From: Promethearchaeota archaeon
Lineage (GTDB): Archaea > Asgardarchaeota > Lokiarchaeia > Sigynarchaeales > SOKP01
Direction: 5' to 3'
DNA length: 32,253 bases
NCBI GenBank assembly: GCA_030605085.1
Contig: JAUWBH010000053.1
Location: forward strand, 1 to 32,253
The position numbers were made by a program, and so were the translations under genes. Every line of letters begins with the position of its first letter. Positions within the stretch are counted from its first letter, which is position 1. The notes under the pieces are model-generated. The model ran no database searches, was not told the origin of the DNA, and worked only from the letters and a program-made list of their open reading frames with translations. Positions 1 to 29,717 of this stretch are shown one piece after another.

Positions 1-2315
1 TACCACTTGATTTTTTTCCAATAATCGTTTGGATGACGATTTTCGTATTCAGCTTTAAGCCTCTGTATAATTTTAAGTTCTTTTCTGAGATTTCTTAACG
101 ATAATTTCATATTAGTCGGATTTTTTTGTTTATCAACGATATTTTTTATTTTTTCTCCCTTTTCATTTACGAATACATTTATATATTTGATGTATTCAAA
201 TTTTCCTGTTTCAACGTTGAACGTCATATCAAAGAGAGTTCGCTGATCCAGAAAATATCGTTTAACCTCATCGCAGTTAGAAGGTTTCGACTTATCCCTG
301 ACGGAAAGGACTCCAAAATGTATTAAGCCTAAATCTCCTCCAATCTCTATATTAACATTCAACTGAGATATATCAGGTTGACTTACTTCTTTGGAGGACG
401 TACCCGTTTTTTGCTCAAACGGTTGGCATAATACTATTTTTCTTCCTTCTAGCTTTATAATAGGGCTGTTTGATCTTTTATACGTTTCCAATAATTCTTG
501 AAATTTACTCCTTTGTTTTTTTGATTTAATTTCTAATTGATATTCCTTTCCTTTTCTTTTTAATAATCCGAACTGGATACATAAGTTTTCCTCATCAAAT
601 TCACATATATGCTCTGAGACAATTAATGGAATAGTTAATTCCTTTATTTTTGGAATTGAAGTAATAGTATACATATCAGAACTTATTGCGTTTAACTCTT
701 CGGCGATTTTCTGTTTCATTACTAAAAACGAGTTCTTGTTTAAAAATAACGTTTTGAGTAACTCTTTTGCTTGATAAAATAATCTCGTGAAAAAATATTC
801 TTGAAAGCCCTCAAAGTCAAGAGATTTGATTGAGACTCGTGAGAAATGTGGTTTAAAGATGCCCTTCACGATGTTAGATGGGGCATTATGTAAAAGATCG
901 TTTAAATAAGTGCAGAGTTTTTTAATTACTTCTATGCGAAGAGCTTTTTCCGAAATATGTGAATAATTCTGTAAATCTGTAATAGTAAAGGTATTTACGA
1001 GAGGATCTCGAATCTTTTTAAATTCTGATAGAGTTGAGATTGAATTTACTTGAAAGAGATGTTCAACAAAAGATATTACCCATCCTTTTCCATAGAGCTT
1101 TTTTCCTTTAAGTTTCAATTTCGCTAATTCCGATGTTCTTCTTCTAATATGCTGAATAAATCTTTTAAGAAAAAATTCTTGTAAGGTAGAATTATTTTTC
1201 AGTGAAAAGCTTGAAAAAAGAGAAGTAAAAAAAGCGCTCACATCTTGATTCGGGTTTTGCTCGTGATTGTTTAGCAACGATATCAGGTTGCTTATTTCAG
1301 TTCTCAATAGAGGATCAAGTGATGTTTTTGAAAGAAAAATATTTCTGAGTTGTCCGATACATTGAGCAATCTCTTCGTATGAAATATTCTCATAATCTCC
1401 TAACACATTTTGCTTATTACCTTTCTTAAAATCGCCAAGGAATTCTCGATACAATTTTTCTCCTGTAAGAAACGCTTTGATGACATATTGCCCCTCATTA
1501 ACTTGTATATTTCTTTTCTCCGAATAATCGTATACCCTCCTTGTTTTCGTAGAAGCTAGTAAAGAATTTATTACAGAAATATAGTTTCTTAAACGCTCAT
1601 TTCGTATAATCCAGTTTCTCACCGCATAGTATGGGTATTGTAACGCATTTTGATTAACTCTTTCTATAAATTCAAGCCTTTTATACGAGTCTGTAGTAAA
1701 CGTACTTAAGTTGTGAGGGGGATCATTTTTAAAATTTTTCTCAGTATAATAATCGTAAATGTATTTTCTGATTCGCATTTTTGCAGATGTGGGTATTGTC
1801 TCTTCGGGATCTCTCTTTTTTAATTCTTCCCTTTCTGCTTTTGAAATAGTTAATCGAAAATTTGGATATTCAAATGCTTTATTGTGAATAAGAGCGGGAT
1901 CGTTTCGAATCTCATTTACCAAGAAATTAACGTATTTATTTTCAAGGTTTCGAAATTTTATTAATTGCTCTCTGATTGCATTGACTATCGATGGATCTCT
2001 AGGAGAGAGAGCGAACTTTCGAGTAATTATCTTCTTTTCTCTTTTGTCTCGAAATCGCCACATCAAATTAAAATGCTTTACAATTTGTTTTACCAGACTC
2101 TCGGAACAATTTGTATTTTCTGCGATTTGTCCATCCGTTAATTTTCTGGAAAATGAAAAAATCATTGGTATGATTCTTGAATAAGTAGATACTTCTGCTA
2201 TTTTTTTTTGAGAATGAGGCTCATTCACTCTTTCAAGGAGTTCCTCTGCCTTATAATTAGGATTTTCCTTAATTATTTCCCATACTTGTCTTTGTTTAAC
2301 AGTTTTCAATACCAT
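1..2315 (-). CDS. Large TnpB/Cas12-like RNA-guided nuclease, N-terminal 771 residues (3' end outside window)
   Basis: I read this frame by hand from ATG at 2315 to the left edge and found no stop in 771 codons; the gene is cut by the window end. Near residues 659-664 is GGDLGL followed by IHFGVLSV, the form of the RuvC-I motif of TnpB/Cas12 proteins, with the presumed catalytic Asp at about 661. After it comes a basic helix (LRNLRKELKIIQRLK) like the one that follows RuvC-I in TnpB. Just before RuvC-I, residues about 560-640 resemble the TnpB beta-barrel (KLEGRKIVLCQPFEQ). The N-terminus has helix-turn-helix-like stretches (about residues 60-85). TnpB usually has this Asp near residue 190, so over 450 extra residues precede it, a Cas12-like scale. 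The upstream, co-oriented gene is an IS607 TnpA remnant, which fits a transposon accessory nuclease. RuvC-II, zinc finger, RuvC-III and any omega RNA would lie beyond position 1. Family assignment is moderately sure; function is inferred. Confidence 0.62.
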   Translation of the reverse strand, partial: MVLKTVKQRQVWEIIKENPNYKAEELLERVNEPHSQKKIAEVSTYSRIIPMIFSFSRKLTDGQIAENTNCSESLVKQIVKHFNLMWRFRDKREKKIITRKFALSPRDPSIVNAIREQLIKFRNLENKYVNFLVNEIRNDPALIHNKAFEYPNFRLTISKAEREELKKRDPEETIPTSAKMRIRKYIYDYYTEKNFKNDPPHNLSTFTTDSYKRLEFIERVNQNALQYPYYAVRNWIIRNERLRNYISVINSLLASTKTRRVYDYSEKRNIQVNEGQYVIKAFLTGEKLYREFLGDFKKGNKQNVLGDYENISYEEIAQCIGQLRNIFLSKTSLDPLLRTEISNLISLLNNHEQNPNQDVSAFFTSLFSSFSLKNNSTLQEFFLKRFIQHIRRRTSELAKLKLKGKKLYGKGWVISFVEHLFQVNSISTLSEFKKIRDPLVNTFTITDLQNYSHISEKALRIEVIKKLCTYLNDLLHNAPSNIVKGIFKPHFSRVSIKSLDFEGFQEYFFTRLFYQAKELLKTLFLNKNSFLVMKQKIAEELNAISSDMYTITSIPKIKELTIPLIVSEHICEFDEENLCIQFGLLKRKGKEYQLEIKSKKQRSKFQELLETYKRSNSPIIKLEGRKIVLCQPFEQKTGTSSKEVSQPDISQLNVNIEIGGDLGLIHFGVLSVRDKSKPSNCDEVKRYFLDQRTLFDMTFNVETGKFEYIKYINVFVNEKGEKIKNIVDKQKNPTNMKLSLRNLRKELKIIQRLKAEYENRHPNDYWKKIKW

Positions 2316-11778: not shown

Positions 11779-13086
11779 TTATAATTTTATAGAAAATGGA
11801 AAATTTTTCGTTTCCTCAATGACATTACCGTCGGGATCTTTAAAAGTTACATCCATTTTTATGTTAAAGTCTCCAGCTTCAAGTGGTTTCAGAGACAATT
11901 CCCACTTCATATTCTCGTTTGAGTTAAGAGAATAAATTTGTTTTTTTATTGTGCCTCTAATAACTTTAAGCTCTTCTGGAAATTCTATATCTAGTTCTAA
12001 TTCTAGTGCGTCTCCTTCGCTACTATTTTCAATTAAAATTTCTAGAGGAAATGATTTATCTATAAGAGGGGTCCTCAGAGCTTCTATAGAAATATCCAAT
12101 GATGGGGGAGGAGATATCAGATTCGGTATTAAAACCTTTTTTTCTTGAAGGTAAAATATAAATTTTTCGTCAATAACACACGACAATAAAATCGGACCAA
12201 TAAAGGGATTATCTATTTGAAAGTGAGGTTTTAATTCATATTGAAAATCGTGTTTTTCACCGGGTTTTAGTTTTATCGAAATTTTTGGCTTTTTTTGAGG
12301 AGTAATATTCTCAGAGAGTGCTAATCCAATATTAGCTATTCTTATTTCCTTAATTTTATAATTATATACAGGATTTTTAGAAATTTCTCTTAGAGACGAT
12401 GTGTCAACACTTACAGTTAAATTAATTATGTCTTTAGTCGTATATTGATCTTTATCGAGAGATAGTTTTGTTTCCATTAAGATGTGAGAATTTGCGACGA
12501 CTAACACGTCTTTAATAAGCTTTAATTCAGCTTTTCTAAGTTTATATTTATCAATAACTAACTCTACTTTATCAAGATACTTTTTATTTTTATCGCGTGT
12601 TGCGATCACTAAATCTTTTACGAGACTAATTAACTGATTTTCTTTAAAATACGTATCATTAACATTTTTTTTTATTTGCTTAAGCAAAGTTAATCCTTGA
12701 TCTTGTTTTCCTTCGGTAAACAAGCATAAATACGAGAGAGTAGAAAATAGGATGTAATTTAAGTCGCGAATTTCCGATCTTTTTAGTTCTGATATATAAT
12801 TTAACGCTTTTTTAAAAAATTTGTTAGCATCTAAGTACTCGGCTATAGATAGGGAAGCATTTCCTGCATTCCTTAAAGCTTTTAACAAAGGACCAATTTT
12901 ATTTTCTAAATCAAAAGATTGGGCTGCTTTATTGAAACACTCTATTGCTTCTTTGTAATCGTCTGCTTTTAAAAAATTTTCACCCGCTGAAGCAAACATT
13001 TTTCCTGCTCTTTTAAATTGTTCCGCTTTATAAAGGAGTTCTCCTTTAAATATCTGTTTTTCCGCATTTTCAATATATTTTCCCAT
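11779..13086 (-). CDS. Alpha-SNAP-like TPR protein with C-terminal Ig-like (appendage-type) region
   Basis: Residues 1-200 form a run of helical hairpins (LLYKAEQFKRAGKMFASAGE, then DDYKEAIECFNKAAQSF and LDANKFFKKALNYI) spaced like TPRs and, in my reading, like the SNAP-type solenoid. Residues 205-435 are beta-rich, with repeated strand patterns (LSLDKDQYTTKDIINLTVSV; SFPLEILIENSSEGDALEL; GDFNIKMDVTF) that suggest two Ig-like/CARDB-like sandwiches of the kind found in adaptor appendages. There is no signal peptide or membrane segment, so it is cytosolic. The combination would suit a scaffold or trafficking-type adaptor, an Asgard theme, but this is inference from fold-level resemblance. It starts 147 bp after mvhD on the same strand. 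Confidence 0.6.
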   Translation of the reverse strand: MGKYIENAEKQIFKGELLYKAEQFKRAGKMFASAGENFLKADDYKEAIECFNKAAQSFDLENKIGPLLKALRNAGNASLSIAEYLDANKFFKKALNYISELKRSEIRDLNYILFSTLSYLCLFTEGKQDQGLTLLKQIKKNVNDTYFKENQLISLVKDLVIATRDKNKKYLDKVELVIDKYKLRKAELKLIKDVLVVANSHILMETKLSLDKDQYTTKDIINLTVSVDTSSLREISKNPVYNYKIKEIRIANIGLALSENITPQKKPKISIKLKPGEKHDFQYELKPHFQIDNPFIGPILLSCVIDEKFIFYLQEKKVLIPNLISPPPSLDISIEALRTPLIDKSFPLEILIENSSEGDALELELDIEFPEELKVIRGTIKKQIYSLNSNENMKWELSLKPLEAGDFNIKMDVTFKDPDGNVIEETKNFPFSIKL

Positions 13087-13720: not shown

Positions 13721-15697
13721 TTATATCTCTTCCAAAATTGCATCGATTTGTTTTTCATACTGCGGTTCACGATAATATCTAAGTGTGATTGCCTCAGATG
13801 GACAATTTGCCAAACATGTACCGCATCCTCTACAAAGAATCTCGTTTACCTCAGCACCGTAGTCCATTAGGGTAATAGCATTATAGGGACAATTTAATTC
13901 GCATAAACCGCATTTTGCACATTTCTTTTTATCAACAGCCGCACGGATTAATAGTATTCGATATATTTCTTTACTCATAAGTCTTGAGAGAGACGAAGCT
14001 GCAGCTCTACCTTGAGTAATTGCCTCTGCAATAGACTTTGGTCCTTGAGCTGTCCCAGCAAGTGCAATTCCAGGAATCTTTGTGTCTATTGGATTTAACC
14101 TCGAATGAAACTCTTTAAAAAAACCGTCTTGACTCGTTTCCAACTTTAGTAATTTCTGAATTTTTTCAACACCTTTAGCAGGTACCATAGCAGCGGATAA
14201 AACGACTAAGTGATATTCAAGTTCTCTCAATCCTAGAGAATCTCTTAACGTATTTCCCATGATTACTTTTATATTGTCAGTTAGTGGGTCTTCTTTTAGT
14301 CTAGAAATGTTTGTTCTAATGTATTTAATTCCTTCCTTTCTGGATGCTGTAAAATACTCTTCGTAATCTTTACCTGCAGCCCTTATATCCATGTATGCCA
14401 CATCTATCTCAGAATCAGGATCATGTTGCTTAATTAGCTTGGAATTTTTAATTGTTATCATACAGCAGACTCCAGAACTACAATAGGTATTTTTATTTAA
14501 ATCTCTTGATCCCACACATTGAATAAATAGTATCTTTCTTGGTCGTTTTCCATCAGAAGGTCGAACAAGATGTCCTAGGGTTGGTCCGTTAGGTGCTAAT
14601 AACCTCTCAAGTTCTAACTGAGTGATTACATTTGGAATTTCATTATAACCTAAATATCCCGTCTCAGGCTCGTATTCGTCCCAACCCGTAGCCACAATAA
14701 TCGACCCAACTTCTAAATCAACAATCTCATCCTCTTGATTAAAATCAATTGCGTCAAGTTCGCATACGCCTTTACATAATTCACATTTTATGCATCTGGT
14801 CATATCTATTTGAGCAATTGAGGGAACGGCTTGAGCAAAAGAGACGTAAATGGCTTTTCTTGCGTTCATACCCTCGTTAAATTCGTCGTAACCATACGCT
14901 GGACACGGTTCTATGCACGCACCACATCCATTGCAATCTTTTGTAACATATCTAGCCTTTTTTCTTATTTTTACCTTGAAATTTCCAACAAATCCTTGAA
15001 TATCTTCCAGCTCACTATAAGTATGAATATTAAGACTAGGAGTCCTCGCTGATTGGAGCATTACAGGTCCTAAAATTCATATACTACAATCGTCGGTGGG
15101 GAAAGTACGGTCTAATTTTGCCATTTTTCCGCCTATAGTGGGCCTTTTTTCAACCAAATGCACTTCAAAACCTTGTTCAGCCAAATCAATCCCCGCTGTT
15201 AACCCAGCAACCCCCCCTCCTATTATTAATGCTTTTTGCGTAATATCTACTTCTTTAACTAAGATAAGTTCTAAGACTTTCGCTCTTGCGACTGCCGAAC
15301 GGATTATATCCTCGGAAACTCTCTGAGCACCAGTTTTGTCTAGTCTATGAACAAAACTTGAGTGTTCGCGAATGTTTGCGAATTCTAAAAACGAGGGGTC
15401 CATGTTCATAGATTCTAAAACGCTTTTAAAAACAGGTTCGTGTGTTTTTGGACTACAAGAAACGACAACTAACCTATTCGAATTACTTTCGATCATTTTT
15501 TCCTTAATAAATTCCGCGCCAGGTTCTGTACAGAGGCTAATATAATCCAATGCGTCCACAACATTAGGAAGCGTCTTCGAAAATTCAGCTAAGGCGTTGC
15601 AATCAATAATTTCGGCAATATTTATGCCTCACTGACAGATTGCAACAAATATTCGAATTTCTTCGTCATCTTTAATTAATTCAGTTGTATCTACCAT
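13721..15697 (-). CDS. hdrA: Heterodisulfide reductase subunit A (HdrA) with two selenocysteines
   Basis: ATG 15697 to TAA 13721 gives 658 codons in one frame, the normal HdrA length, interrupted only by two TGA codons. Codon 23 (TGA 15629-15631) lies in AIC-Q-U-GINIAEIID, where HdrA has C-H-C-G-x-N-I; codon 207 (TGA 15077-15079) lies in TDDCSI-U-ILGPVM, where HdrA has D-C-S-x-C-I-L and where Methanococcales HdrA is known to carry Sec. The order is: N-terminal cluster domain; SCSPKTHEP; FAD site GGGVAGLTAG (about 160-169); ferredoxin CNGCGACIEPCP (255-265) and CIKCELCKGVC (302-312); and two C-terminal 4Fe-4S sets CAKCGLCELNCP and CRGCGTCLANCP. HdrA bifurcates electrons at its FAD in energy metabolism with hydrogenase or formate-type partners. 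AAGGA lies about 9 nt before the ATG. mvhD follows after 13 nt. Confidence 0.92.
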
Positions 15698-20156: not shown

Positions 20157-22985
20157 ATGGAGCTTAATGCACATTCTTTAGATATTAATACTGTAACCAG
20201 TGAGTTAGAAACTTCTATTGAGAGAGGATTATCTGAAGCAGAGGTAAGAAATCGCCTTGAAAAGTATGGTGAAAATCAATTAATTGAGAAAGAAAAATTA
20301 TCTGCATTTCAAATTTTCATGAAACAATTTAAAGATTTTTTAGTATACTTATTACTTTTTGCGATTGCTATTACTCTAACAATTGGTTTCTATAAATTAT
20401 CAATAGGTGAAGACCCTGAAGAATTTTTGGATGCAATAGTTATTTTCATAATCCTTGTTGTAAACGCATTATTAGGTTTTTACCAGGAATATAAGGCAGA
20501 AAAAGTACTAGAAAGTCTAAAAAAGATGGCACCTCACTCAGCTAAAGTAAAACGTGATGGTATTATAAAAGAGATTGATGTTAAGGATGTGGTTCCAGGA
20601 GATATCATTCAATTAGATGAGGGAAATAAAATTCCTGCAGATGCTCGACTGATCAAGGGCTATTCTCTAAGCGTAGATGAATCTATTCTAACTGGCGAAT
20701 CAAAACCAGTACATAAAAAACCCGACATCGTGGAGGAAAAAAACATGCTAGCGGATCGAAAAAATATTGTATATAGTAATACAATCATTACACGTGGTAA
20801 TGGAGAAGCGATTGTAATTTCAACAGGTATGAATACGGAAATTGGTAAAATTGCCGAAAAAGTCCAAAGAGAAGATGAACCCAGTCCATTCCAACAAGAT
20901 ATTAATTGATTTGGAAAGAAGCTTGGAATATTTATAATAATTATCTGTTTTATTTTATTTATTACTGAAGTTGTTCAAATAATATTATTTCCATCAACAA
21001 TAGGAAATGATTTTAGAGGAGAAATTATTAATGCATTAAATATTTCAATAAGTTTAGCCGTTTCAGCGGTACCAGAAGGATTAGTCATAGTTATTACTGT
21101 TGTCATGAGTATTGGGATGAAAAAAATAGCTAAGAAAAATGCTTTAGTAAAAACTTTAAATGTGGTTGAAACCCTGGGGCGTGTCAATGTAATATGCACG
21201 GACAAAACAGGTACGCTAACCAAGAACGAAATGACTGTTGTTAAAATATATCTCGGAGGAAGAGAATATGAGGTAGAGGGTACGGGTTACACGCTTGAGG
21301 GAAAATTAGTCGATAAATCAAAAATAAATGTTTCCATCTCGCCAAACTTGAAAAGATTTCTTGAAGTTGGGATGTTTTGTAATAATTCAAATGTTAACAT
21401 CAGAAAAGATGGGGTAAATATTGATGTCATTGGCGATCCCACTGAAATTTGCCTTAAAGTGTTAGCATTGAAAATGGAACTTGATACAAAAGCAGAAAAA
21501 ATTAATGAGATACCATTTAGTTCGGATCGAAAAATGATGTCTGTTGCTGTTAAGATTGATAATGAATTGTTTTCTTTCATTAAAGGAGCGCCAGATGTTT
21601 TAATAAAAAATGCCACCAAAGGTTTGTTAAACGATCAAATTAGACCCATAGGTGAAATTGGAGATTTATTTCTAAAAAAGAGCGAAGAATTTGCTAAAGA
21701 TGCCCTCCGAGTCTTAGGAATTGCATATAAACCGTTAAGTGGAGGTTTTACCGAAGATGATATGGAAAAGGATTATATCTATCTTGGTTTAATAGGGATT
21801 ATTGATCCTCCGAGAGATGAAGTAAAACATTCTATCAAGGAGGCTCGAATGGCAGGAATCAGAACGATCATGATTACGGGAGATCATAAAAGCACTGCAA
21901 TGGCTATTGCTAAGGTAATTGGATTAACTGAGGAGGAAGATGCTATTACGGGAGAAGATTTAGAGCAAATGACCGATGAGAAACTTACTGAAAGGATACA
22001 ATCTGTAAATGTTTTTGCTAGGGTATCCTCTGAACATAAGCTTCGTATATTAAATGTATTAAAAACTGACGGGAGTATCGTTTGTATGACAGGTGATGGT
22101 GTAAATGATGCTCCCGCTGTGAAAGGTGCAAATGTTGGAGTCGCAATGGGATTAAAAGGTACAGAAGTTACGCAAGAAGCGGCAGATATCATTCTTCTTG
22201 ATGATAATTACGCAACTATAATAAGCGCTATTGAAGAGGGCCGAGGAATTTTTAATATAACAAAAGGTTTCTTTAGATACATGTTAAGCGTCAATTTTAG
22301 TGAAATTATTTTGATATTTGTGGCATGGATACTAATAAAAGTATTTATTAAAATATATCTTGCTCAACCTCTCGAACCAATTCAAATATTGTGGTTAAAT
22401 ATAGCAACAGACGGAATTCCCGCAATGGTTTTAGGATTGACACCCACAGAAACAGATTTAATGAAATCACCTCCAAGAAAAGATTTCAATATAATATCTG
22501 ACATAAAAAAAGCACTTATAATAACGGCGGGCATTGCGGCAATTTCAAGTATTATATTGTACATTGTAACCTGGACTATTTTAATTCCAACATGGAGTAA
22601 TCCCAGTTCGCCTTGGTATGACCCCCGTTTTATTGAGGGAACTACAATTTTTGGTGTAAGTTATTCTGGAACAGAGTATTCTATTGCTGTCGCTCAATCT
22701 ATAGTTTTTACTAATGTCGTGTTTTTCGAATTATTTTTTGTCTTTTCTTGCACATCTGAAACTAAACCCATGTGGGAGTTTCCAAATAAACATTTATTTT
22801 GGGCAACAGGTCTTTCATTTGCCCTACATTTATTGATTCTGTTCACACCCATGGGTATTGCGTTTCATGCGGTTCCTTTAGATCGATGGTATTATTGGGT
22901 AGCAATTATAGTAAGTTCTTCAATTATTATCCCTGCTGAAGAAATTAGAAAGTATCGAGTAAGAAAAAAAAATGAATTAGTATAA
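20157..22985 (+). CDS. P2-type cation-transporting ATPase with one in-frame TGA
   Basis: The frame from ATG 20157 to TAA 22985 has 943 codons, the usual size of a P-type Ca2+/Na+/H+-type ATPase, and is broken only by TGA at 20907-20909 (codon 251). In order: N-terminal cation-ATPase domain (GLSEAEVRNRLEKYGENQL); helices 1-2; actuator domain with DESILTGES (about 179-187); helices 3-4 with VSAVPEGLVIV; phosphorylation site CTDKTGTLTKNE (Asp about 349); nucleotide domain KGAPDVL; hinge TGDGVNDAPA; and six C-terminal helices including LWLNIATDGIPA. It pumps cations out using ATP; the ion is not certain. The TGA replaces a variable residue (DIN-stop-FGKKLG) just before helix 3, not a cysteine, so selenocysteine is unlikely: nonsense mutation, assembly error or readthrough are the options. 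Confidence 0.9.
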
Positions 22986-27497: not shown

Positions 27498-29717
27498 TTA
27501 TGTGGTTTCATCGTCATCGCTAATATCTCCATAATTTTCGATTGTATTATAAATTTGTTCAATTAATTCATCAAGATCAATAGTCTCTTGCTTTTCAGTA
27601 AGCATATTTCTAAAAGCAACGCAATTTTGCTCCATTTCTTTTGGTCCTATTATTAATGTGATTAATACACCAAATTCTTTAGCTCTTTTTAATTGATTCT
27701 TTAAATTTTTAAATCTATAATCGACAATATACGGAAATTCTTCTTTTCGGATAATTTGGGAGAGCTTAATTGCATAATTTGCGACACTCTCGTTAGTTGA
27801 TGCGATGTAAATTGTATCTGTGTATTCCTTTTCTTGAATAAAGTCAGGGATTAGGTTGTAAGTGTTTAAGAACATAGACAACATTAAAACGCCCATACCA
27901 AATCCTATTCCCGAGATTTGCTCGTCCGAGAACAAGGATAAAAGATCGTCGTATCTACCGCCACCGAAAATAGCCCTTATGTTTTCTTTTCCAGTATCAA
28001 AAACTTCAAATACCGTTCCTGTGTAGTAATCAAGCCCTCGCACAACTCTTGAGGAAAATGAACAGTATTTTGAAATACCAGCGTCATTTAATAAGTTTTC
28101 TAAGCCGATCAATTCTTTATAACCGTTTGATTCGTAGAATTCTTCAGGAATTTCATCAAATTTTCTTAATAATTCTTATATATTATCAGATTCCTTCAAT
28201 TTTAAAATTCCTTGAACCACATATTCGTCTTGAAAGGAATCAATAACATACTTTTCAAATTCAGTTTCTTCCATTTTATCCGATTTGTCTAAGATTTTAT
28301 AGACTAGTGGCATTTTATCTTGAGGAACTTTAAGAATAAATTCGCAAACAGCATCAATAAAACGTCGATTGTTATAATAAATCTGAAATTGCTCCTCTGT
28401 TGCGCCAAAATTCGTTAAAATGTCCACAACGATATTAAACATTTCTAAATCAGCATAAAGACTGATATCTCCTAAAATATCCATGTTTATTTGCTTGAAA
28501 GAGCGTAATCTCCCTCTCTGTGGTTGCTCGTATCTAAAACATGTTGGTATAGAGTACCATCGAATGGGCTTCTTTAATTCTTGGGATTTTCGAGATACCA
28601 TTCTAGCAAGTGTTGGTGTAAGTTCTGGTATTAAAATTATTTTACGATCTTCAAATTTTTCTACATAAAAAGATTGTTCATAAATTAATTCGTGTGAAGA
28701 TTTTGCTGCAAAAATTTCGATAGGTTCTAAAATTGGACCTTCATATTCTTCATAACAATATAATTCAGCAACTTCTCGAACTATTTCTGTTATCCAATTT
28801 ACTTCCCGCATATCTTCGGGAAAAAAATCTCTCATACCTTTGAGAGGGCTATTACTAAACCTTTTCAGAGTTAATTTTTCCCATATTCTAAACTTTTCTT
28901 CTATATGATCTCTTTTTTCTTTTAAATCCGTAATTTCTTTTAGATTTCCTAGTTTATCTTTAAAAAAGAAATTATTAAAAATTTCCATATAATTATTGGC
29001 TCTATAACTAAAATATGTAATACCTTCATCTACCAATTTTCTTCCATAATCTATAGCTCTATTATAATAGCCTAAAGCCCACTTTACTTCATTAACATAT
29101 CTTTTAACATCGTCCTGATAATATTCTTTAAATAATAAAGCATTATGAATATGTAAGTCACCCAGAATTTCATAATAATCTAAGAATCGTTTATAATTAT
29201 CAATATTATCATCTAATTTTCCAAGATTTACTTTAACATTTTCTATAGCTTTATCTAAATTATAAAAGATTTTATTATAAAAATATGGAGTGACCTCATT
29301 AAGAAAATCAGAGATATTTAATTTTTTATTTGGATAATGATGTACTACTTGATTTCTTTTTTCTATTAATAACTCAAATAATAAATTATTTAATTGTAAA
29401 TAAAGAGAAAAGTCTATTTTATCAACTCCATAGAGTTTTTCACTTGTACTAACATATTTTTCATTATAATTAAGTTCTTTATCTTTATAGTTATTAATTA
29501 TATCATAATAGGATTCATGTGTATATAATCTCAATTTTGAATAATATAAAATGATTTCTTTAATCTTATAAATTGTTTCACGATATAAATCTTGAAGTTT
29601 ATATAAAACGCCTTTCGATTCTTCTTTAATAGAATCATATTTATCTATTTCTTTAGTTAAATCATCAATTTCTCTTTTTATATCATCAATCTTATTTTCA
29701 ATTTCTGCTTGAGTCAA
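27498..29717 (-). CDS. hisS: Histidyl-tRNA synthetase with a long N-terminal HEPN-like extension and an internal TAA
   Basis: One frame of 740 codons from TTG 29717 to TAA 27498, broken by TAA at 28176-28178 (codon 514). From about residue 285 it is HisRS: LKGMRDFFPEDMREV (motif 1 region), RWYSIPTCFRYEQPQRGRL (motif 2), then after the stop VVRGLDYYTGTVFEVF (HisA loop), GGGRYDDLLS, SGIGFGMGVLML (motif 3) and a C-terminal anticodon-binding domain. Normal HisRS is about 420-430 residues; the first 280 are extra. They begin with a coiled coil (1-35), then helices with EKRNQVVHHYP (119-129) fitting the HEPN RNase motif R-N-x3-H, and a TPR-like stretch (about 200-250). As the only HisRS seen it should be essential, so the TAA may be an assembly error or true split; the next in-frame start is TTG 28112. 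HEPN is inferred from the motif only. Confidence 0.85.

Follow-up and report, generated by a model that had tools for sequence, protein, structure and literature searches.

The stretch of DNA analyzed here (32,253 nt, referred to below as the window) carries on its minus strand what appears to be a selenoprotein unit of hdrA and mvhD from an archaeon of Lokiarchaeota type. Codons 23 and 207 of hdrA and codons 17 and 68 of mvhD, all in-frame UGAs, would be decoded as selenocysteine (Sec), as the conservation of these positions suggests, and for both hdrA codons we regard Sec as very likely. A single eukaryote-like SECIS hairpin behind mvhD, the sole such element found, would act on all four UGAs in the two genes. 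The N-terminal cluster of HdrA most likely has Sec23 among its ligands, provided from within the N-terminal domain, and joint ligation of this one cluster by Sec23 and Sec207 is plausible. Taken as a whole, the model of four Sec residues, one shared SECIS, and Sec23 and Sec207 on the same cluster is in our judgment likely to be correct. The coordinates of the features considered are listed in Table 1.

Table 1 Features of the hdrA-mvhD unit, with positions numbered along the window.
Feature	Position	Strand	Remarks
hdrA	15697-13721	minus	658 codons, of which 23 and 207 are in-frame UGAs; homologous to solved HdrA over the full length
UGA codon 23 of hdrA	15631-15629	minus	C-x-U-G (ICQ-U-GINIAE); aligned to Cys13 of 5odc_A
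UGA codon 207 of hdrA	15079-15077	minus	DDCSI-U-ILG; known Sec site of HdrA; Cys197 in the 5odc_A alignment
Gap from hdrA stop to mvhD start	13720-13708	minus	13 nt; too short to hold a separate SECIS
mvhD/vhuD-like gene	13707-13234	minus	TTG start picked by eye; 157 codons before the stop, with UGA as codons 17 and 68
UGA codon 17 of mvhD	13659-13657	minus	C-W-K-U; UGA or Cys in relatives
UGA codon 68 of mvhD	13506-13504	minus	U-Y-P-G-E-C; UGA or Cys in relatives
Eukaryote-like SECIS hairpin	13232-13198	minus	AUGA, stem, A-rich 11-nt loop, stem, GA; directly after the mvhD stop

The hdrA and mvhD frames

The hdrA frame starts with ATG at 15697 and ends with TAA at 13721-13723, and TGA is the only type of stop found in frame between them. 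Calling of open reading frames with table 11 breaks the gene into a 160-aa piece (15077-15559) and a 446-aa piece (13721-15061), while the first 22 codons, being below the 90-aa limit of the ORF list, are absent from it. The first-pass annotation had described an otherwise full-length HdrA split by two in-frame TGAs, without giving a strand, and had expected automatic annotation to fragment the gene. Both points hold, with the gene lying on the minus strand and with a catalogued 446-aa protein (P0026) being 100% identical to the C-terminal piece.

When the frame was compared with the solved HdrA chain 5odc_A, an end-to-end alignment was obtained (E 8.2e-200, query residues 12-655), which is gap-free from query residue 12 to column 207. 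In this alignment, columns 21, 23, 56, 81, 204 and 207 of hdrA correspond to residues 11, 13, 46, 71, 194 and 197 of 5odc_A. The presence of Cys in homologues at both UGA columns, proposed as a check in the first-pass annotation, is thus found at columns 23 and 207. In 9sfi_A, the N-terminal motif is C-Y-C-G, placing Cys at column 23, and column 207 is written X, as for a nonstandard residue, the listing not saying which. Pfam matches to ferredoxin and FAD/NAD-binding domains were obtained, and the full-length homology takes in the N-terminal iron-sulfur, FAD, inserted ferredoxin and C-terminal ferredoxin domains of HdrA. The protein nonetheless scores below the curated cut-offs of three NCBIfam models, namely NF040770 (751 of 1100 bits), NF041778 (570 of 1400 bits) and NF041891 (532 of 1300 bits). 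It should be considered that these profiles are 762-777 positions long and that two of them match the window MvhD by their C-terminal part, such that HdrA alone is at a disadvantage against these cut-offs. The window protein is an HdrA homologue and not a member of these three models.

The stretches of hdrA between and after the UGAs are under purifying selection. Relative to eight relatives, pN/pS was 0.10-0.15 for codons 24-206 and 0.12-0.15 for codons 208-658, with pS of 0.66-0.88, while for codons 1-22 the ratio is noisy, as few sites are available (0.05-0.52). As synonymous sites are near saturation while the UGA stays, the UGA seems to be kept even though a single transversion would yield a Cys codon.

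The second gene of the unit matches the NCBIfam VhuD model NF045873 with 147.6 bits, below the cut-off of 215, over profile positions 3-131 of 132; its product is a VhuD/MvhD homologue by coverage, under the curated cut-off. An MvhD-like frame was found behind hdrA in 119 of the 142 distinct HdrA proteins of the survey described below. Among these 119, both MvhD columns are UGA in 108 cases and the first alone in three, one frame is cut off after the first column, and seven have Cys at both columns, all seven adjoining an HdrA without UGA. At two loci (L131 and L136), the hairpin is reached before any TAA or TAG downstream of hdrA, as is expected if hdrA and mvhD are fused or if the intervening stops are TGA.

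UGA columns among HdrA relatives

Our analysis of related HdrA proteins was based on two collections. One genome scan yielded 59 loci, 53 of which are titled Lokiarchaeota or Lokiarchaeia. Among the 57 sequences that cover column 23 (56 of these loci and the window), UGA was found in 48 and Cys in 9. We then considered 227 genomes of the phylum of one relative, scoring five candidates per genome, with matches at E ≤1e-165 in at least 147, and added 80 regions picked by hand from among the matches listed, aiming at lower identities. The resulting 186 records, including the window, were reduced to 177 rows and 142 distinct proteins by considering only alignments that start at or before residue 20 and span at least 550, with fragments dropped. 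As these 142 proteins are the best matches to the window HdrA, all proportions given below should not be taken as population frequencies.

Column 23 is UGA in 119 of the 142 proteins and Cys in the other 23, with nothing else being found, so that codon 23, singled out in the first-pass annotation as the second Cys of a C-x-C-G motif, is a genuine second site. Codon 207, which had been taken as the known HdrA Sec site and which aligns with Cys197 of 5odc_A as stated, is UGA in 134. Nor is codon 23 a lone oddity, as UGA recurs at columns 56 and 81 as well (27 and 29 proteins), followed by columns 308 and 603 with a single UGA each. In total, 311 of 313 UGAs lie on Cys columns, and of the 26 Cys columns followed, the 22 other than 23, 56, 81 and 207 are UGA only twice, namely at 308 and 603. 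Columns 23, 56 and 81 represent three of the four conserved Cys of the N-terminal domain, the fourth of which, column 21, is Cys in all 142 proteins. The two UGAs found off Cys columns are located at Ile170 (L185) and at Arg118 (L068).

The number of UGAs per protein ranges from none (8 proteins) through one (8), two (79), three (42) and four (4) to five (1). The window type, with UGA at 23 and 207, is the most common (77 of 142). All four recurrent columns are UGA together in four proteins, namely L061 (same place as L006), L066, L067 and L071. An N-terminal UGA (at 23, 56 or 81) is present only alongside UGA207, in 126 of 126 proteins, and the eight proteins that lack UGA207 have none. The HdrA paralogue L066 (G005:C7:36086-38017) has five UGAs, one of them beyond the four recurrent columns, at Cys column 308 of the inserted ferredoxin domain. 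Its unit presents two more UGAs in mvhD, giving seven across the two genes.

On a FastTree tree of the 142 proteins, the fewest changes between Cys and Sec that explain the data are 9 for column 23, 9 for column 56, 16 for column 81 and 1 for column 207, each below all 200 shuffles. This should be read with the method in mind, as UGA residues were entered as X with the columns left in, as a quick method and long branches limit the tree, and as the direction of change is not given by such counts. In 20 distant paralogues, conservation singles out no non-ligand among the N-terminal Cys, as all four are kept in 20 of 20. At column 207 of the same paralogues, two have Cys, 16 have another residue and two have no aligned residue. 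One Sec-HdrA is titled Bathyarchaeota (L050, Bathyarchaeota archaeon Bin_245); it groups among the other surveyed HdrA proteins and is perhaps mis-binned.

A further candidate, a calcium-type P-type ATPase in the window (20157-22985, plus strand) with one in-frame TGA at codon 251, was rejected as a Sec site, since this TGA aligns with Ser in two solved homologues; a nonsense lesion or a sequence error may have produced it. As the UGAs of L185, L068 and the ATPase are at non-Cys columns, not every in-frame UGA here is plausible as Sec.

The SECIS element and the Sec machinery

The hairpin behind mvhD presents AUGA, an 8-bp stem, an 11-nt loop and GA, and agrees with what the excerpted text of Huang et al. 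2024 (PMC11227280) gives for Asgard type I eSECIS-like elements, that is, a GA..[G/A]A core, an upper stem of 7-15 bp and a loop of 8-20 nt. UGA23 is 2,399 nt away from this element in the window, and in 84 units the distance is 2,327-2,450 nt, with a median of 2,395. RNAfold yielded -13.4 kcal/mol for the window element, with a z-score of -2.2 and 7 of 200 shuffles being as stable, the minimum-energy fold pairing part of the core differently.

For comparative analysis, we aligned 54 sequences from 73 distinct 35-nt elements found by a hairpin scan. In the nine-position stem, 91.8% of 486 cells are paired, both sides have changed in 157 cells (39 in shuffles), and the covariation score is 0.907 as compared to 0.14-0.21 in slid versions, figures that are inflated by the selection of the sequences by a pairing scan. 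In 31 of the 54 sequences, the outermost position does not pair, and RNAalifold alone predicts the inner eight pairs. Counting the pairs in which both sides have changed at least once does not separate the alignment (9) from shuffles (8.6). A hairpin-scan score of at least 24 was reached by 94 of 110 Sec loci, by 0 of 7 non-Sec paralogues and by 7 of 117 shuffles. It was also reached by 5 of 117 internal regions. When an element was sought near the hdrA start, this score was found in 5 of 117 hdrA 5' regions, like shuffles.

A covariance model built from the alignment, considered at E values up to 1, gave 68 matches in 67 of 75 sources, one in each and two in L050. It should be noted that 36 of these 67 sources are training rows and that the 67 hold 46 distinct hdrA genes. 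All 68 matches are downstream of hdrA on the same strand, 64 of them at 430-503 nt. In L068 and L075, which are related HdrA paralogues, the match lies 93-96 nt after hdrA, with no MvhD frame found behind the gene, while the two matches in L050 lie 50 and 1,129 nt after hdrA. The eight sources in which the model has no match are five non-Sec paralogues, L044/L064 (one place) and L065, and these last, L044/L064 and L065, encode a Sec-HdrA yet have no match. The window element, itself one of the 54 training rows, scores 61.9 bits, with other matches in the window reaching at most 18.4 bits.

We also looked for a second SECIS in the window unit by both the hairpin scan and the covariance model, and none was found. 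One SECIS therefore probably serves four UGAs in two genes, and one element per hdrA-mvhD unit would be the simplest reading. A lokiarchaeal SECIS has been reported to be non-functional in Methanococcus maripaludis (PMC11881835).

The Sec machinery that the first-pass annotation had proposed to look for was sought in five relatives. Matches above cut-off were found for SepSecS in all five relatives (4 of 14 controls, two of these bacterial), for SelD in four, with one internal TGA each (2 of 14 controls), for tRNA-Sec in three (above the Rfam cut-off; 5 of 14 controls) and for SelB in two (2 of 14 controls). For PSTK, a match above cut-off was found in none of the five relatives (1 of 14 controls), G001 and G002 having full-length, weaker matches. 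The tRNA-Sec match is located about 220 nt before the SepSecS match in G001, G004 and G005 (in G005 below cut-off), and a weaker match in G002 (35 bits) is likewise placed before SepSecS. The Sec elongation factor model PF21208 had no match anywhere, controls included, and is thus uninformative.

Candidate cluster ligands and alternative readings

In the heterodisulfide reductases, Sec ligates iron-sulfur clusters (PMC9499178), and Cys197 of the other HdrA has been described as a trans ligand of the N-terminal cluster, on a path towards ferredoxin (PMC9012536). Since a [4Fe-4S] cluster with one trans ligand would need three more, and since exactly three N-terminal columns take Sec, we propose positions 23, 56, 81 and 207' (the prime denoting the other HdrA), and not Cys21, as the four ligands. 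Which three N-terminal Cys bind is named in no source that we found, and this assignment was inferred from the column pattern. The recurrence of UGA at columns 56 and 81, together with the trans ligand reported at 207, suggests that the Sec sites probably converge on one cluster. If this cluster is a [4Fe-4S] cluster, as we take it to be, the two UGAs that are 184 codons apart would meet there as two selenolate ligands next to two thiolates, in an HdrA complexed with the MvhD [2Fe-2S] subunit, itself with two Sec. Positions 56 and 81 would switch between Cys and Sec in relatives, such that zero to four Sec may be present on the cluster. More tentatively, the Sec columns could be the exact four ligands, in which case L061/L006, L066, L067 and L071 would possess an all-selenolate [4Fe-4S] cluster at the dimer interface, with six or seven UGAs served by one SECIS; this proposal may well not hold. 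As to electron flow, PMC9012536 differs from PMC12350162, a figure legend of which puts the N-terminal HdrA clusters on the entry path. We conjecture that Sec could help to tune electron exchange in an electron-bifurcating complex, or make such a complex more robust.

Both UGAs might encode Sec while Sec23 and its neighbors serve in redox chemistry as thiols or selenols, such as in a selenenylsulfide with Cys21, rather than as ligands. Such a role would fit the C-x-U-G motif, which resembles redox-active pairs. Still, it is the same four columns that recur, Cys21 is never Sec in 142 proteins, an iron-sulfur cluster has been described for the N-terminal domain, and the rare extra UGAs (308 and 603) are also at Cys columns of ferredoxin domains, so we consider a redox role of this kind unlikely. 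Another option is that the 3' SECIS serves only the other UGAs, while UGA23 is decoded by another, as yet unrecognised signal within the coding region or the 5' leader. Indeed, UGA23 is farther from the SECIS than the 70-1,500 nt quoted for archaea (PMC9499178), a source that also gives archaeal genes one or two Sec. However, every covariance-model match is downstream of hdrA, and the scan of 5' regions gave no more than shuffles did, with the reservation that both scans see only this SECIS type. We thus hold a separate signal to be improbable.

The catalogue of proteins bears on two readings without Sec23. We searched 5.8 billion proteins, and the figures refer to the best 120 of 7,389 matches. 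Among these, 28 entries are at least 460 aa long and the other 92 are 434-453 aa. All 28 long entries have Trp at column 207 and 27 have Trp at column 23, the other lacking that part. Such long entries (P0002-P0025 and others) are from short contigs and carry Trp at UGA as if code 4 had been used. The catalogue matches listed hence represent this enzyme by a C-terminal piece or by a longer version in which Trp occupies the Sec positions. A changed code, with UGA read as Trp or Cys throughout the genome, would account for this Trp and for the window ATPase frame, which is open for 691 codons beyond its in-frame TGA. It is hardly credible when one considers that the recurrent columns are otherwise Cys and never Trp, that the remaining 22 Cys columns are almost free of UGA, and that tRNA-Sec, SepSecS and a UGA-containing SelD are present in relatives. 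Moreover, 4 of the 23 window ORFs examined end in TGA, and, the ATPase aside, read-through would add 18, 25 or 2 codons. We rejected a changed code on the basis of the column pattern and the stop usage. Sequencing error as a source of the UGAs was likewise rejected, as the same column is UGA in many assemblies. Finally, UGA23 could be a real or regulated stop, with translation starting at GTG 15559 or ATG 15061 and with only UGA207, or neither, encoding Sec. The table-11 ORFs do begin at these two positions, catalogues contain the 446-aa form, and codons 1-22 are few, with noisy pN/pS. We nevertheless find a stop very improbable, as the alignment with solved HdrA begins at query residue 12, ahead of codon 23, and as codon 23 is UGA or Cys in all 142 proteins, the UGA persisting although synonymous sites are near saturation. 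The preference of the first-pass annotation for Sec over nonsense is in agreement with the Cys found in homologues, the strong downstream SECIS and, PSTK below its cut-off aside, the Sec-machinery genes seen in relatives.

Relation to known systems and neighboring genes

The window unit shares much with selenoproteins already described. HdrA is listed as a CxxU protein with one Sec, and MvhD as CxxU with two, in the excerpt of a 2026 review (PMC13188914), where a small subset of prokaryotic selenoprotein families is said to have 2-3 Sec; HdrA is given as CxxU also in the excerpt of PMC9312934. As in the methanogen and Asgard HdrA of this type, the window protein is of the same family, has the Sec207 site, and is encoded beside frhD/mvhD on one strand. 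What differs from the listing in the excerpted PMC13188914 is the second Sec at C-x-U-G (column 23), with columns 56 and 81 added in relatives. The window mvhD is like the known VhuD/MvhD with two Sec in the same excerpt and looks ordinary. A SECIS common to hdrA and frhD was already stated by Huang et al. 2024, and the text of that paper as excerpted (PMC11227280) presents the same type I hairpin, with an AUGA core and an A-rich loop, after the second gene. In contrast, the present unit has four UGAs, the first of which is 2.4 kb upstream, and the excerpted text yielded no Sec count per HdrA. Selenoprotein P-type mRNAs (10 Sec and two SECIS in the 3' UTR, according to the excerpted PMC8266573) resemble the window unit in decoding several UGAs from afar by few 3' elements. 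Here, however, there would be one element for two genes of one archaeal unit, and the products would be metal-cluster proteins, not a plasma selenoprotein.

In the literature searched, partly as excerpts and with the 2016 Lokiarchaeota selenocysteine paper and supplementary files outside its scope, we found no report of an HdrA with several Sec, and the excerpts of two older Sec-HdrA papers (PMC1794560 and PMC2933860) yielded no Sec positions. The C-x-U-G site, the three to five Sec per HdrA and the 2.4-kb distance thus seem new, although the N-terminal site may have been noticed before. The single catalogued Sec site of HdrA would become a set of interchangeable Cys/Sec positions, seemingly around one metal cluster, and a comparison of natural variants with zero to four Sec would put the role of Sec in iron-sulfur ligation directly to the test. 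A single eukaryote-looking archaeal SECIS that acts across two genes and some 2.4 kb, if decoding takes place as proposed, bears on the origin of the eukaryotic system.

As for other genes of the window, a protein of at least 771 aa (3-2315, minus strand) runs off the window and has no Pfam match at E 0.01, its PADLOC match being at chance level. A histidyl-tRNA synthetase (27498-29717, minus strand) seems to be split into ORFs 28176-29717 and 27498-28112, the former having a long N-terminal part without a Pfam match. The gene directly downstream of the SECIS (11779-13086, minus strand) presents a weak but above-cut-off Pfam match to SNAP (soluble NSF attachment protein), together with marginal TPR matches.
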